DNA of 6,740 nucleotides from Bacteroidota bacterium. GTDB lineage: Bacteria; Bacteroidota; Bacteroidia; Bacteroidales; VadinHA17. The DNA is taken from contig VGGM01000086.1 in assembly GCA_016868515.1 (NCBI GenBank), positions 1 to 6,740 of the forward strand, read 5' to 3'. This document shows, in pieces, positions 1,496-6,740 of this stretch. The notes under the pieces are model-generated. The model had not been told where the DNA came from. It saw nothing but the letters and a program-made list of their open reading frames with translations, and searched no databases. The position numbers and the translations under genes were made by a program. Positions within the stretch are counted from its first letter, which is position 1, and every line of letters starts with the position of its first letter.

Positions 1496-1570
1496 AAAAA
1501 CCGTAGGAAAAGGTTCAGGCCCGGTTTTTGCTGTTAACCAACTATGATATATATTTGGTGAAAAAACCGG
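1496..1570. repeat. Three AAAAACCG blocks in direct and inverted orientation around the operon promoter
   Basis: AAAAACCG occurs at 1496-1503, its inverted form CCGGTTTTT at 1521-1529, and AAAAACCGG again at 1562-1570. The middle copy can pair with either neighbour: an 8-base stem with an 18-base loop on the left, or a 9-base stem with a 32-base loop on the right. The middle copy overlaps the predicted -33 element. The right copy lies at the predicted transcription start, so the right-hand pair brackets the -7 box. This could be an operator with paired half-sites; only the symmetry is seen directly. Confidence 0.45.
1527..1557 (+). promoter_or_regulatory. Bacteroidetes-type housekeeping promoter for the four-gene operon
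   Basis: TTTG at 1527-1530 is followed after exactly 19 bases by TATATTTG at 1550-1557. This matches the known Bacteroidetes primary sigma consensus (TTTG at -33, TAnnTTTG at -7, spacing about 19-21) at every defined position. Transcription should start near 1561-1564, giving a leader of about 80 bases before the ATG at 1643. It faces the propeller gene and is the only promoter of this quality noticed in the intergenic region. Confidence 0.75.
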
Positions 1571-1642: not shown

Positions 1643-2626
1643 ATGAAAACATTAACCCGGATTCTCTGCCTGATCGTATTAGCCGCTCCTCTCTCATGCA
1701 ATAAGACTGAATACGAACTGGCCGACGCTGCCGAAGCAGGCGTATGGACCCTTCTCGATACCGGGTCGGGTCTGCCTTCAAATCAGGTTCAGGATATAAC
1801 CCTCGACCGCGACAACAACCTTTGGGTTACCTTCCCTTCAAACGGAGCGGCAAGACTCAGAAACAGCGCATGGACCGTCTTCAGGACCTCAAACAGTTCA
1901 ATTCTCAGCAACGCTGTCACTGCAGTGGCATCTGACAGCGGGGGAACAATAATTATCGGAACTACCGACGGTATCTCGATCCTCTCTGCAAACGATCAGT
2001 GGACCTCCTACCGTGACCCCGACGCTGCTGCGATGATTATTAACTGCATTAAGGTAACAAGAGCCGGGCATATCTATGCAGGAACACCTGACAGGGGCCT
2101 TTACATAAATACCGGTTCGGGATTCACGCGGCTCGATGAATCGGCATTTCCCAATGTCAGAGCCATTGAGGAGGACGTCAACCGGAACGTGTATGTGGGT
2201 ACCGAGAATGGCATCAGAAGATGGAATGGTTCAGCATGGTCGGTTATCACTACTTCATCGGGATTACCGTCAAACAAGGTAACAGCCCTGCGTTCCGACA
2301 GTCGCAACCGCCTGTGGGTAGGAACTGCCGACGGTAACAGGGTTGCATATATCGACCAGACGGGTGTAAGGCAGATATCGCTTATGGCCGGCATAACCGC
2401 TACTTCTGTTTCCGATATTCACGAAGACAGAAGCGGGAACATCTGGTTCGCAACGAACGGAAAGGGGTTGATAAGGTACGACGGTGTCATTCCTCACTCT
2501 TACAAGGTTTACAACGGGTTCTTTGAAGATGTTGTTAACTGCATTGAAGAAGATGCCGACGGGAACCTCTGGTTCGGGCTCAACAGCAAGGGTCTCGTAA
2601 AGTACACCCTTCCAATTAACAAGTAA
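1643..2626 (+). CDS. Lipoprotein with seven Reg_prop repeats (predicted single seven-bladed beta-propeller)
   Basis: A predicted membrane-anchored propeller of 327 residues. Residues 1-18 form a signal peptide (MKT..., hydrophobic core 7-17). Cys19 in APLSC is the likely lipidation site, although Pro at -3 departs from the strict lipobox. The rest divides into seven repeats of 38-44 residues, at about 35-76, 77-119, 120-160, 161-198, 199-241, 242-283 and 284-327. Most follow the Reg_prop pattern, for example GLPSNKVTAL then D..NRLWVGTADG, or D..GNLWFG..SKGL. In hybrid two-component sensors such propellers come in pairs joined to a membrane helix and kinase; here there is no kinase, so the protein is free-standing. 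Lys at +3 and Glu at +5 and +7 after the Cys loosely recall the Bacteroidetes surface-export signal. An in-frame GTG at 1586 would add 19 residues; ATG 1643 is preferred because it places the signal peptide at the N-terminus. It is the first gene of the operon; the ligand is unknown. Confidence 0.88.
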   Translation: MKTLTRILCLIVLAAPLSCNKTEYELADAAEAGVWTLLDTGSGLPSNQVQDITLDRDNNLWVTFPSNGAARLRNSAWTVFRTSNSSILSNAVTAVASDSGGTIIIGTTDGISILSANDQWTSYRDPDAAAMIINCIKVTRAGHIYAGTPDRGLYINTGSGFTRLDESAFPNVRAIEEDVNRNVYVGTENGIRRWNGSAWSVITTSSGLPSNKVTALRSDSRNRLWVGTADGNRVAYIDQTGVRQISLMAGITATSVSDIHEDRSGNIWFATNGKGLIRYDGVIPHSYKVYNGFFEDVVNCIEEDADGNLWFGLNSKGLVKYTLPINK

Positions 2627-2631
2627 AGGCC

Positions 2632-3696
2632 ATGAAAAAACAAACACTCCTCACGGTTCTTCTGGCAGCAGTGTACGTTGTGGCAAATGCACAGACCTCT
2701 GTAATCAGACCCGATAAATATACTCTCCTCACCATGCCGTACAACCAGAGGCAGCTTACACTTTACAAAGGCCAGGTTCAGGCCAATGCCGGGTATAAAT
2801 TCTCGGTAATGGCACGGCAGTTCAGCTCAGCCGGCGACCTTGAAGTGCTGCGTAATATGGGCATCGCTTCGGTTTATCACTATTATTTCGCTGAGATGAA
2901 GTATGGAGTTGCACCGTTCCTCGAGGTCGGTGCAATGACGAACTTCATGAAAAGGGGTGTGCGATCTCAAACCGTAACCTATGTAAGTGCTGACGAAACT
3001 GTTAAGGTTAATAACCTTACAGAGGAAAAGGGGATGGGCGATTTGCTCCTTACAGCCACTCTCCGGCTGCCGGTTGAATTCAGGATTGCCGACATAAGCG
3101 CCGGTGCAGGTTTGTTAATCCCTTCTGCAAAACATGAACCCGAAAAACCGACACATACGGTCTCAAATGTTCTTTCTGAATCATCATATACCGTCAACTA
3201 CCAGTATCACAATACTATAGGCAACGGAGTGCCTGTGTATCTGTTCTCGGCAAATGCCAAAATAACACTATCCGGTTTCACCCTGGCAACCTCATTCCTC
3301 ATGAAGGATCCCGTTCGTGAAGGTGAAAACTTCAGGTGGAACCAGAATCTTACCGCCAACCGGACTTTCGATTACTCAACCAGTACTTACAAATTTCTTC
3401 CCGACAGGTCATTTGAAATCGGAACTGCGCTCCATTTCCAGGCAACCGGGTGGCTGAACGCATTTATGAACCTGGGGTACATGAATTCAGGCGGCGGTTG
3501 GACGGAATACTGGGGCAAGAGATACCGGAACCCCGATAGGTGGATGATTTCGCTTGAACCGGGACTTGAAATCCAGGTATCTCCGGCTGTTACAATTTAT
3601 CAGAAGGCCGGATTCCCGTTATCAGGCAAAAATACATACGCACCTTTTTATATGTATATTACTGCCAGCTTCAACACCTTCGCGTTTTACAGATAA
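2632..3696 (+). CDS. Predicted outer-membrane beta-barrel protein, first of two
   Basis: A 354-residue exported protein. Residues 1-20 are a typical signal peptide (MKKQ, hydrophobic core, ANA|QTS cleavage), leaving a mature chain of about 334 residues. It is rich in alternating polar/hydrophobic and aromatic strands with no further transmembrane helix, which fits an outer-membrane barrel. The G-M-G-D-L-L-L segment at 134-140, followed by a strand and then a PSAK turn, resembles Bacteroidota and proteobacterial 'transporter' barrels of the MetA-pathway type (PF13557-like, from memory). The chain ends in ...FAFYR rather than a final Phe, so its barrel-assembly signal is atypical. The ATG at 2632 lies 5 bases after the previous stop; AAAGG just upstream is too close for an ideal ribosome site. 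It shares its layout with the next gene and probably arose by an old duplication. The cargo, if any, is unknown. Confidence 0.75.
   Translation: MKKQTLLTVLLAAVYVVANAQTSVIRPDKYTLLTMPYNQRQLTLYKGQVQANAGYKFSVMARQFSSAGDLEVLRNMGIASVYHYYFAEMKYGVAPFLEVGAMTNFMKRGVRSQTVTYVSADETVKVNNLTEEKGMGDLLLTATLRLPVEFRIADISAGAGLLIPSAKHEPEKPTHTVSNVLSESSYTVNYQYHNTIGNGVPVYLFSANAKITLSGFTLATSFLMKDPVREGENFRWNQNLTANRTFDYSTSTYKFLPDRSFEIGTALHFQATGWLNAFMNLGYMNSGGGWTEYWGKRYRNPDRWMISLEPGLEIQVSPAVTIYQKAGFPLSGKNTYAPFYMYITASFNTFAFYR
3003..3019. repeat. Near-perfect palindrome inside the first barrel gene
   Basis: TAAGGTTA and TAACCTTA form 8-base perfect arms around a single A. The site encodes part of a polar stretch (VKVNNLT) just before the GMGD motif, probably a loop. 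It may be a binding site or a chance effect of the codons; nothing nearby supports a role. Confidence 0.3.
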
Positions 3697-3706
3697 CCCT
3701 TACCCG

Positions 3707-4675
3707 ATGGCAAGATCATTTGTCGCATACCTGCTTTCAATCTTAAGTCTGACCGCAACCGGTCAGATTGAAAAGCAGCTCCTCCCTTCCGACATCAAAC
3801 AACAAACCGTGGTAACGGAACCTGTTACCCTCTCACGCGGCTTCTTTCGATCAGGATTCTGGGTTTCGTACGGGGTGGTCGACAAGTATTTCGATTACGA
3901 GGGAACCAAAAAGTACTACCTCAACAGCACCTGGGGATCTGCGACATCATATCTCTTCAATTTTCAGTATGGCATTACATCGCGTCTGATGGTCGACATA
4001 AACATTCCGGTGAATTCAGCAAGGGAACAGTTCAGCGGACTAACCGTACAGCCTGAAATAAATGCCGATGCACCAGAGACCTCAAACCTGAAAGGCAAAG
4101 GTATCGGCGATGGAAGTGTCAGGCTGGCCTTTCAGGTAATTGATGAGAAGAATCACAGAATCTCACTTACGGGCACCCTTGAGGCAACAATACCCACAGG
4201 CGAAAAAAACCCGACCAATATAAGGAACCTGCGGGAATACAATCTTCCAACCGGAAGCGGCTTCTGGTCAACAGGCGGAAAGCTGATGGCACGTACCATA
4301 CTATACCCATATTCAATAACCGCATACGCTGGTTATGTAAGCAGGTTTTCCGGCAAGAAGCTGGCTACCCCGTCCGATCTTGCCGAAACCGAATTCCGCG
4401 ATGGTAACTCATTCGAAGCCGGCGGGAGTTTTAACCTGCACCTGAATGACTGGATTGTAACCGCCAATCACATCAGGTACCTTTACAAGGGTGAAGGTGA
4501 AATACGCGAACCATTTAACATTACCGTTCCACCGGTAACCGCCCTGTTCTTTGAAACACAGCTTATATTCCAGGTGGGGCAGCTCAGAATCGGAGAATCT
4601 GTCAGAATACCACTGGCGGGGAAAAGGATTTCAGCCGATCCCCGCTTCGAAATGCTTGTGCAATATGTCTTCTGA
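3707..4675 (+). CDS. Predicted outer-membrane beta-barrel protein, second of two
   Basis: A 322-residue exported protein with signal peptide 1-19 (MARSF, hydrophobic core, ATG|QIEK cleavage). The mature chain alternates aromatic and polar residues in strand-like runs and ends in VQYVF. A terminal Phe with hydrophobic residues at alternate positions is the usual recognition signal for the BAM machinery. KGKGIGD (129-135), then a strand and P-T-G-E-K, match in order the KGMGD and PSAK segments of the preceding protein, as do YGIT and YGVA turns upstream, so the two are probably distant paralogues. An upstream extension to 3554 would overlap the previous gene by over 140 bases and bury the signal peptide, so ATG 3707 is chosen. 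There is no Shine-Dalgarno. It begins 10 bases after the previous stop, and its last 11 bases overlap the start of the TPR-CHAT gene. The role is unknown; a pore or a structural partner is possible. Confidence 0.8.
   Translation: MARSFVAYLLSILSLTATGQIEKQLLPSDIKQQTVVTEPVTLSRGFFRSGFWVSYGVVDKYFDYEGTKKYYLNSTWGSATSYLFNFQYGITSRLMVDINIPVNSAREQFSGLTVQPEINADAPETSNLKGKGIGDGSVRLAFQVIDEKNHRISLTGTLEATIPTGEKNPTNIRNLREYNLPTGSGFWSTGGKLMARTILYPYSITAYAGYVSRFSGKKLATPSDLAETEFRDGNSFEAGGSFNLHLNDWIVTANHIRYLYKGEGEIREPFNITVPPVTALFFETQLIFQVGQLRIGESVRIPLAGKRISADPRFEMLVQYVF
3735..3773 (+). repeat. Possible mRNA hairpin near the start of the second barrel gene
   Basis: TCTGACC (3748-3754) pairs perfectly with GGTCAGA (3761-3767) across a 6-base loop. 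TTTCAA (3735-3740) pairs with TTGAAA (3768-3773) as an outer stem, leaving a 7-base bulge on the left side. It starts 28 bases after the ATG and covers the signal-peptide cleavage site. No T-run follows, so it is not an intrinsic terminator. An effect on translation or mRNA stability is possible but unproven. Confidence 0.35.
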
Positions 4676-6740
4676 AAGTCTCAGCCACAGACCGCAACCA
4701 GCCTCCGGTCTCATCCGGCCGCTCTTCCAGGTATGGGGTATTATTTCACTTATTATTCTATTATCAGGCTGCGCCACACCGTCAATCATGGTTACCCAGC
4801 AGCAGCGCAAAGGCGACCAGTACTTCAACATCCACAGGTATGAAGAGGCCGCCCGCCACTATATGCAAATGATTGATGCAAGTCAGAAACTGGGTATCTA
4901 CAGGAACATCGGAACCGAGGCTGCCGTAAGACGCAAGACTGCCAACTGCTTCGAAATGACCGGCGATTATGAGTCGGCTCTTCTGCACGTAAGAGAAGCC
5001 ATGCTTCTTGACTCTGTTGAGAATAACATAATTAATCTGATTGAGGATTACAGGCAGGAGGGCAGGATATTCATATATATGGGATCATACAACAAGGGGA
5101 TTGTCTCACTCAGCAAAGCACTGAATCTTGCCGGTTCGCTGAAGGGTTCGCTGAAGGACGACCGTAAGCTGGCAATGGCCGATACATACCTGGCCCTGGG
5201 CCAGCTTTACGCAGCAACGGGAAAGTATAAAGACGCCCTGAACTATTCTGATCTGGCTGCCGGCATTTTCAGACAAACAGGTGACACCCGCGGGGAAATG
5301 GAGGCTTATCTGAACACGGGGTCGGTATGGGCCGATCTGGGTGACCACCAAACCGCCCTTGGTTACATAAACCGTTCACTCGAAATTGCCGTGGCAGGGA
5401 AAATGGGTGTCTACAGGCACCATCAGCTCATTGCTTCAATACTTACATCCTCGGGAAGGTATGATGAAGCTATAAGCAGCCAGGAAAAGGCTCTGGCCGA
5501 TGCCAGAAAATATGGTATCCGCGGCCAGATTGTATGGGCAACCATCGGTCTCGGAGACATCTACAGCAACCTGGGAGATAATGCCAGGGCCGAATTACAC
5601 TACATTCAGGCCCAGAAGCTCAAGGATACAATCCCAATGCAGGCTGGTAGCCTGAAAGCTTCGCTCGATATGAGAATCGGCGAGGTAATTGAGGCCGGTA
5701 ACTATTTCAGCTCCGAGAAACTTCTCACCGGTGATGGCATCAGTTCGATGCGCCTGGCCGAAATTATGGCGCTGAAAAATGAAGCCGACAGTGCTGTTAT
5801 TCTCCTTGACAGGGCAGGTAACGCCTTCAGAACCGCCGGGAACATGCAGGGGCTGGCAAGAGTGAAGGTGCTGAAAGGCAAATTGCTTATCGACAAGTAT
5901 GAGTATTCTGAGGCAGGAGTTGTTCTCGATTCGGCCCTGATGTGGAAAGTATTCCCTGAAACTACATGGCAGGCCTACTATTATAAGGGTATTATGCTGG
6001 AGACTCTTAACAAAACAGGCGAAGCCCTTGAATCATATAAAAGTGCCGTACGGGTTATTGAAGACGTTAGGGGGAACCTTACATCGGAAGAGTTCAGGAG
6101 TATATTCCTTGATACAAAAAGAGAGGTATACGAAAGGCTTATAAGCCTTCTTATAAGGCTGGGACAAACCAGCGAAGCATTCTACTACTCCGAAAACGCC
6201 AGGGCAAGGGCATTCTACGAAATGCTGGCAGGCAGGAATATCAATTTCGGCAGGGCTTCGGCCGATGACCTGATAATAACTGAACAGGAAAAGCGAAATG
6301 AAATCGGGAAGCTCCAGAGACTTCTGCAGGTAACAGAAACCCCTGATCACCAAAACCGCGCAGGAACAGAAGATGAACCGGAATCTCTCAGAAGATCTCT
6401 TGACAGGGCAAGGGAGGAGTATAACTCAATTCTGCAGCAGATAAGGACATCAAAGCCCGAGTATGCCGAACTCATTGCCAGTAAACCGGCATCTGTCGAT
6501 GAAATAAGGAAGAACCTCGATGAAGGTTCCTCAGCCATTGCCTACTGGGTTTCTGTAGAAAACTGCTATGGATGGCTTATCTCAGGGAACTCAGTTCTCT
6601 GCATTCCTCTCGGGACGGGCAGGGATAACCTAATAACCATGATTGAAGAGGCGAGAAAAGCTATCAGGTCGCTGTCGCCTGATGCCGGAGTACACCTGGG
6701 GCGACTCTATAACCTGCTGATAAAGCCATTTGAGAACCAT
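4665..6740 (+). CDS. TPR-CHAT lipoprotein, predicted envelope caspase-like protein (partial, 3' end off the right edge)
   Basis: The frame is open from ATG 4665 to the last base, giving 692 residues; about 200 more would be expected to complete the CHAT domain. Residues 1-35 are a long signal peptide with hydrophobic core 23-33, and LLSG|C36 is a textbook lipobox. No acidic residues follow the Cys. About nine TPR-like helix pairs lie near 46-72, 86-116, 124-156, 171-205, 212-242, 250-284, 289-325, 399-430 and 434-465, with patterns such as LGQLYAATGKYKDAL. Residues 466-525 hold the conserved pre-CHAT block, including ENARARAFYEML (510-521). A charged, probably coiled-coil linker leads to PEYAEL (598-603). 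CHAT begins near 609 (EIRKNL..GSSAIAYWV). The window ends at His692 in LIKPFENH, before the family's catalytic His and Cys, so activity cannot be judged. The start overlaps the previous gene by 11 bases, suggesting translational coupling. Known CHAT proteins are proteases such as separase-like or Csx29-type enzymes; some are scaffolds. Confidence 0.92.
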   Translation, partial: MSSESLSHRPQPASGLIRPLFQVWGIISLIILLSGCATPSIMVTQQQRKGDQYFNIHRYEEAARHYMQMIDASQKLGIYRNIGTEAAVRRKTANCFEMTGDYESALLHVREAMLLDSVENNIINLIEDYRQEGRIFIYMGSYNKGIVSLSKALNLAGSLKGSLKDDRKLAMADTYLALGQLYAATGKYKDALNYSDLAAGIFRQTGDTRGEMEAYLNTGSVWADLGDHQTALGYINRSLEIAVAGKMGVYRHHQLIASILTSSGRYDEAISSQEKALADARKYGIRGQIVWATIGLGDIYSNLGDNARAELHYIQAQKLKDTIPMQAGSLKASLDMRIGEVIEAGNYFSSEKLLTGDGISSMRLAEIMALKNEADSAVILLDRAGNAFRTAGNMQGLARVKVLKGKLLIDKYEYSEAGVVLDSALMWKVFPETTWQAYYYKGIMLETLNKTGEALESYKSAVRVIEDVRGNLTSEEFRSIFLDTKREVYERLISLLIRLGQTSEAFYYSENARARAFYEMLAGRNINFGRASADDLIITEQEKRNEIGKLQRLLQVTETPDHQNRAGTEDEPESLRRSLDRAREEYNSILQQIRTSKPEYAELIASKPASVDEIRKNLDEGSSAIAYWVSVENCYGWLISGNSVLCIPLGTGRDNLITMIEEARKAIRSLSPDAGVHLGRLYNLLIKPFENH
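5133..5156 (+). repeat. In-frame 12-base tandem duplication in the TPR region
   Basis: GGTTCGCTGAAG occurs twice in a row (5133-5144, 5145-5156) and encodes Gly-Ser-Leu-Lys twice at residues 157-164, between the third and fourth TPR units. Identity at all bases including wobble positions indicates a recent slippage event. It lengthens an inter-repeat loop and keeps the frame. Confidence 0.85.
6134..6160. repeat. Perfect 16-base palindrome with a repeated CTTATAAG core
   Basis: AAGGCTTATAAGCCTT at 6134-6149 is identical to its reverse complement. The core CTTATAAG recurs at 6150-6157, and AGCCTT (6144-6149) can also pair with AAGGCT (6155-6160). The site encodes the ERLISLLIRL helix of the conserved pre-CHAT block, so it may simply reflect repeated Leu-Ile codons. 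No regulatory context is visible. Confidence 0.45.

Follow-up and report, generated by a model that had tools for sequence, protein, structure and literature searches.

The locus described here lies on contig VGGM01000086.1 of a Bacteroidota bacterium, and the window analysed is this complete contig of 6,740 bases (source assembly of 2,250,735 bases in 505 contigs, 77.82% complete). From position 1643 to the contig end it carries four genes, all on the + strand, which together form what we call the module. The first (1643..2626, 327 aa) encodes a β-propeller lipoprotein of the Reg_prop type (PF07494, 4.5e-31) that is likely to be surface-exposed. It is followed by two predicted FapF-type outer-membrane barrels: barrel 1 (2632..3696, 354 aa), which matches no Pfam or NCBIfam family, and its paralogue barrel 2 (3707..4675, 322 aa), which has FapF-like PTG motifs. 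The fourth gene (4665..6740, 692 aa, assigned by family alignment) encodes a TPR-CHAT lipoprotein and is truncated by the contig end, so that its open reading frame is unclosed. The gaps between the genes are 5, 10 and −11 bases. Judged by eye all four N-termini look exported, both barrels starting with leaders and the CHAT protein with LLSGC. The original prediction of four tightly packed exported genes, one of them for a TPR-CHAT protein, is therefore confirmed.

A profile scan of genome contigs gave 40 loci, of which 19 (L003–L021) have an essentially complete CHAT gene of the same family; L022 was dropped as it begins within CHAT. In all 19 the genes follow one another on a single strand as propeller, barrel 1, barrel 2 and CHAT. 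Both barrels are present throughout (the contig of L018 ends within barrel 1) and the propeller is present in 17 of the 18 testable loci, being only partial in L017, with L018 outside the test. Gaps within the modules range from −62 to 121 bases, depending on the start codons chosen. Three loci (L018–L020) are from Cytophagales, Cyclobacteriaceae and Flammeovirgaceae, and the remainder from bacteria labelled Bacteroidales, Bacteroidia or Bacteroidota. A further, distant module (L078, genome G824) belongs to another family of the window's order and keeps the gene order. The prediction had allowed that the four genes might not be neighbours in related genomes, but in the related genomes they are neighbours. 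Shared contig sizes give an independent hint of co-location: 19 of the 120 listed barrel 1 proteins are on a contig equal in size to that of one of the 109 listed CHAT proteins, and shifting the contig sizes by 1–20 bases leaves 0 to 2 such coincidences. Two loci have peculiarities of their own. At L014 (7573–7818) the propeller ahead of barrel 1 is reduced to an 81-residue open reading frame with a masked run, and has been lost, is short or is masked. At L078 (4367–7486) a 1039-residue protein with a propeller match of 45.8 bits is encoded convergently with the CHAT gene, at a 2-base gap, and is possibly a linked regulator.

CHAT genes outside the family were used as controls. Around 20 more distant CHAT loci (L023–L042) there was no propeller or barrel 1 match and the module order occurred in none, although this control is incomplete because several contigs end close to the CHAT gene; in one of them, L035, a weakly matching barrel (55 bits) lies roughly 4 kb away. 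Seven other TPR-CHAT matches of at least 100 bits in five module genomes (in G017, G824, G025 and G035) have no barrel nearby; near one of the seven, L072, a large propeller protein (61 bits) is encoded at a distance of 1.7 kb, two other genes intervening. Nor was any barrel or propeller seen when 20 wider stretches were taken around those CHAT genes of the order that scored next best (16 with more than 2 kb upstream); L079–L105, stretches too short to hold an upstream neighbour, were not counted. The expectation that propeller and barrels recur beside TPR-CHAT homologues more often than chance would give was thus borne out (19/19 family loci against none in the controls), and with L078 and these module-free CHAT genes a chance neighbourhood was rejected.

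Among 393 genomes of the order (at most two candidates scored per genome) the TPR-CHAT profile gave three matches of at least 880 bits, all in modules, the next best among the matches listed being 288 bits. Strong barrel 1 matches (at least 148 bits) were confined to modules in 99 relatives (six places in four genomes) and in the 393 genomes of the order (three genomes), and a sample of 395 genomes of the phylum gave a single one, in the window's own genome (at most five candidates scored per genome in the order and phylum searches). These searches indicate that the module is rare and patchy in the genomes sampled. At L049, L050, L051 and L054 barrel 1 matched weakly, at no more than 31 bits; these are other barrels, with no module seen. 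It had been envisaged that the CHAT gene might usually be found without the other three; no CHAT gene of this family was found barrel-less. Comparison of 20 loci showed no gene beyond the four that accompanies the module in every one of them, which leaves the barrels and the propeller as the only co-encoded candidates for a substrate.

Barrel 1 is predicted to adopt a FapF-type fold, its AlphaFold (AF2) model aligning to three FapF entries from model residue 31–34 against FapF residue 88–89; a profile search of PDB with barrel 1 gave nothing except a ribosomal protein at E 0.89. The barrel 2 profile matched FapF (5o67) at 2.4e-11, and comparison of the two barrel profiles gave a probability of 99.7. 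In Pseudomonas, FapF forms a channel of 12 strands that has a plug on its periplasmic side, with the plug helix at A89–G101 (PMC5557850). The most conserved 20-residue stretch of both barrels lies at the mature N-terminus, where the plug sits in FapF. In barrel 1 this is residues 32–51 (2725..2784), which appear to overlie the FapF plug position; in barrel 2 it is PSDIKQQTVVTEPVTLSRGF (3785..3844), near the mature N-terminus, for which a plug role is suggested by analogy. We infer from the likeness to FapF that the conserved N-termini of both barrels would act as plugs.

The propeller profile has its best PDB match in the propeller of a two-component sensor (4a2l, 2.3e-75), with a further match at 4.5e-9 to 5m11, which we take to be PorZ. 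Its lipid-attachment cysteine is invariant in the alignment (20/20 rows), although the window's protein has an unusual proline at −3. Lipoproteins of Bacteroidota are directed to the outside by a short acidic signal behind the lipid cysteine, with K-(D/E)2 or Q-A-(D/E)2 as the minimal signal in Capnocytophaga and SDDDD in Bacteroides (PMC5080379). The window's propeller has the tract CNKTEYEL (1697..1720), with two acidic residues at +2 to +8, and at least two acidic residues occur there in 19 of the 20 aligned propellers. In the TPR-CHAT protein the lipobox LLSGC (4758..4772) is followed by ATPS, without an acidic export tract, and across the family the CxTPS anchor is found in 106/113 proteins, none of which (0/106) has an acidic residue at +2 to +8. 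These anchored counts replace a pattern-only lipobox scan (two or more acidic residues in 16/18 propellers and 4/110 CHAT proteins) that chose some wrong cysteines. With an acidic tract in the one and none in the other, the propeller is likely to be outside and the TPR-CHAT lipoprotein to face the periplasm. At the level of sequence-based prediction, a single envelope module is supported in which the propeller and the TPR-CHAT protein, both lipoproteins, go together with two outer-membrane barrels. The proposal of a system for sensing and proteolysis of the cell surface needs modification, because the difference between the anchors (0/106 against 19/20) makes proteolysis at the surface less likely than on the periplasmic side of the outer membrane.

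Because the contig ends inside the fourth gene, the window's CHAT gene is truncated ahead of the catalytic His and Cys, and its 692 aa have no PF12770 match. A database protein (P0001, 908 aa) identical over 651/651 shared residues extends through the full CHAT domain, and PF12770 (clan CD CHAT peptidases) is precomputed on it and on most of the listed relatives. A protein search with TPR-CHAT, in which the 7997 best word-sharing candidates were scored, gave 157 matches, the best 120 of which were listed. Of these P0001–P0109 are a close group (44–100% identity, fragments included), while beyond them identity is 34% and less among the matches listed. The catalytic His is found in 110/110 and the Cys in 109/109 of the members that have a residue there (113 in total), and in alignment the two coincide with catalytic residues H585 and C627 of the Craspase TPR-CHAT protein. 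The CHAT part has the Craspase/separase fold, its closest PDB chain by sequence being 8rot (DdvA, 1.9e-5), and with its conserved dyad the protein may be an active protease. In one relative (P0062) a T9SS (type IX secretion system) sorting tail (PF18962, precomputed) stands in place of the usual last residues; either the fusion is genuine or the assembly joined two sequences at a YPxP stretch. A PADLOC search gave no match for the propeller or barrels and three for the truncated TPR-CHAT protein, the best a TPR model at 1.1e-10, the query lacking the CHAT domain. An exported CHAT protein had been thought unusual in itself. The TPR-CHAT profile is matched at E ≤ 1e-40 in at least 151 of the 393 genomes of the order, and the products of most of 20 TPR-CHAT genes retrieved from the order start, judged by eye, with a leader resembling a signal peptide. 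Exported TPR-CHAT proteins therefore seem common in Bacteroidales; it is the module that is unusual.

Three loci (L013, L015 and L020) have tandem propeller–barrel–barrel triplets ahead of a single CHAT gene; in L013 the end of another barrel 2, the third, is also present. When 21 triplets were placed in trees (topology alone), the propeller, barrel 1 and barrel 2 each gave the same grouping: the triplets of L013 and L015 nearest to CHAT fall with L011, and the upstream triplets of these two loci with L003, L005 and L008 ({L011, L013c, L015b} against {L003, L005, L008, L013b, L015a}); the triplet pair of L020 is separate from these groups. Pairwise distances of the four genes correlate (Pearson 0.79–0.91, uncorrected for kinship). 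From the matching trees the triplet appears to behave as one unit that is duplicated and kept while one protease is shared, and the arrangement is consistent with several interchangeable sensor–channel cassettes served by one protease.

Upstream of the module, on the opposite strand, is a sodium-solute symporter gene (PF00474, 1.3e-86). A promoter-like site, TTTG-N19-TANNTTTG, lies on the + strand at 1527..1557, 85 bases ahead of the propeller ATG. It is the sole exact match in the window, where 0.09 are expected from shuffles, to what we take to be the Bacteroidota promoter consensus. A sigma-70 scan gave 18 sites (7.2 in shuffles) on both strands and within genes and was not used. In the related loci one upstream gene family recurs in eight and one downstream family in nine, with both in seven (all among L003, L004, L005, L007, L008, L010, L011, L012, L013 and L015). 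These flanking genes are presumably a permease and an rRNA-methylase-like gene, and their sharing suggests that the module occupies a fixed chromosomal place in one clade. Behind CHAT, L005, L011 and L015 carry one more gene, on the opposite strand.

The reading we favour, to which we give a probability of about one in three, is that the module is a surface-sensing, protease-controlled outer-membrane channel. The surface propeller lipoprotein would sense something outside and its signal would pass through the two FapF-type, predicted plugged barrels, so that propeller and barrels together would control the periplasm-facing caspase-like TPR-CHAT protease. The TPR repeats would dock on the barrel N-termini, and the protease would cut the plug segments or the cargo of the barrels, with opening of the outer-membrane channel as the outcome. 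By analogy the nearest working model is the Fap system, in which the periplasmic cysteine protease FapD is required for secretion via FapF (a C38A mutant stops secretion) and may cut FapF near the plug (PMC5557850). Several points weigh against this proposal. It stands on gene order, sequence and predicted folds, with activity, interaction and location only predicted. The Craspase TPR-CHAT protein cuts a separate neighbour protein, Csx30, and not a pore (PMC10028731). The position of the plug depends on the AF2 model of barrel 1 only and on the first aligned residues, and these barrels are without the long coiled coil and linker that precede the plug in FapF (about 11 predicted mature residues precede the conserved segment in barrel 1, against about 82 before the barrel construct of FapF). 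The export-signal argument for the sides of the two lipoproteins is indirect, an adjacent acidic pair at +2 to +8 being found in only six of 20 propellers and not in that of the window. The promoter consensus has a match ahead of the propeller in only one of 19 related loci (L021), and the likeness of the gene trees may be shared species history.

Possible, although doubtful, is a signalling role in which a ligand at the surface would be reported by the propeller and barrels, and CHAT would cut a periplasmic regulator encoded elsewhere, the barrels carrying the signal and not being pores. Cleavage of the sigma-factor inhibitor Csx30 by Craspase (PMC10028731) is a model for this, but no linked regulator was found, no gene being kept beside the module in all loci, and two channel-type barrels exceed the needs of a signal. 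Rather doubtful is dedicated protein secretion by a Fap-like two-channel exporter, in which CHAT would process the cargo on the periplasmic side and the propeller would take it over at the surface. The FapF-type barrels and their PTG motifs would suit this, as would the Fap precedent of such a barrel paired with a periplasmic cysteine protease; the Fap operon, however, encodes its own cargo, and here no additional gene recurs in all loci. A caspase-gated outer-membrane pore, in which TPR-CHAT would cut the plugs of both barrels on the propeller's signal and one protease would serve interchangeable sensor–pore cassettes, is unlikely as stated in this specific form; if true it would be an outer-membrane counterpart of the pairing of caspases with gasdermins. 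Less probable still is an uptake system in which the barrels import a hydrophobic or polymeric nutrient bound by the propeller and TPR-CHAT is mainly a scaffold, as a scaffold has no need of a catalytic dyad that is invariant wherever the residues are present. The T9SS attachment complex (with PorZ as propeller, PorV and PorQ as barrels and PorU as sortase) has similar kinds of parts (PMC8545088), the propeller does weakly match the PorZ model and true PorZ is found in 5/5 module genomes searched, but that the module is a variant of this complex or an accessory to it is very improbable given that the match (45.3 bits) is far under the PorZ cut-off of 260 bits, the barrels are FapF-type, the protease is CHAT and only one of 395 phylum genomes has a strong barrel 1 match.

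If the favoured channel reading is set beside known systems, Fap shares with the module its FapF-type barrels, the PTG motifs (in barrel 2) and an exported cysteine protease. It differs in having one barrel where there are two here, a C39 protease in place of CHAT and a long coiled coil ahead of the barrel, and the module adds a propeller lipoprotein; neither the C39 protease FapD nor amyloid subunit genes were found alongside, nor the N-terminal coiled coil and linker. In the T9SS attachment complex PorU is a sortase of the C25 family with a caspase-like fold, so that a propeller, two outer-membrane barrels and a cysteine protease of caspase-like fold are common to both. The module could still not be filed there, as its propeller is not PorZ, which is encoded elsewhere in the same genomes, and its protease is TPR-CHAT and not PorU; no NCBIfam match to PorV or PorQ was obtained for the module proteins at E ≤ 1, the existence of both models there being unchecked. 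With the Craspase TPR-CHAT protein (Csx29, type III-E CRISPR) the module shares TPR repeats, the CHAT fold and the His–Cys dyad, but here the protein is an exported lipoprotein, and among the genes examined ahead of CHAT in the 19 loci it is the barrels that precede it, not gRAMP/Cas7-11 or Csx30, so that this assignment was rejected too. The hybrid two-component sensors of Bacteroides (4a2l) have the Reg_prop propeller in common with it, whereas the module propeller is a 327-aa lipoprotein with propeller families only and no kinase or regulator fusion. DdvA (8rot) is by its PDB title a transmembrane anti-sigma factor, and its match to CHAT covers about 110 residues; the open-licence literature searched yielded no paper on it. 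Nor did the search of that literature bring up a description of CHAT with a propeller and barrels, or of a TPR-CHAT lipoprotein, in agreement with the earlier claim that no system of this make-up had been described. The four-gene system appears new as a combination, although every fold is individually known. Caspase-like proteases are best known inside cells, and the family here (at least 109 close database proteins, fragments included) is predicted to lie on the periplasmic side of the outer membrane, with two channel-type barrels and a surface propeller linked to it through gene order. Should this association be a physical one, a signal from outside would be coupled to proteolysis across the outer membrane, or a channel would be opened by cutting. 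Each part lends itself to testing, the catalytic dyad, the triplet cassettes and the conserved N-terminal stretches of the barrels being defined.
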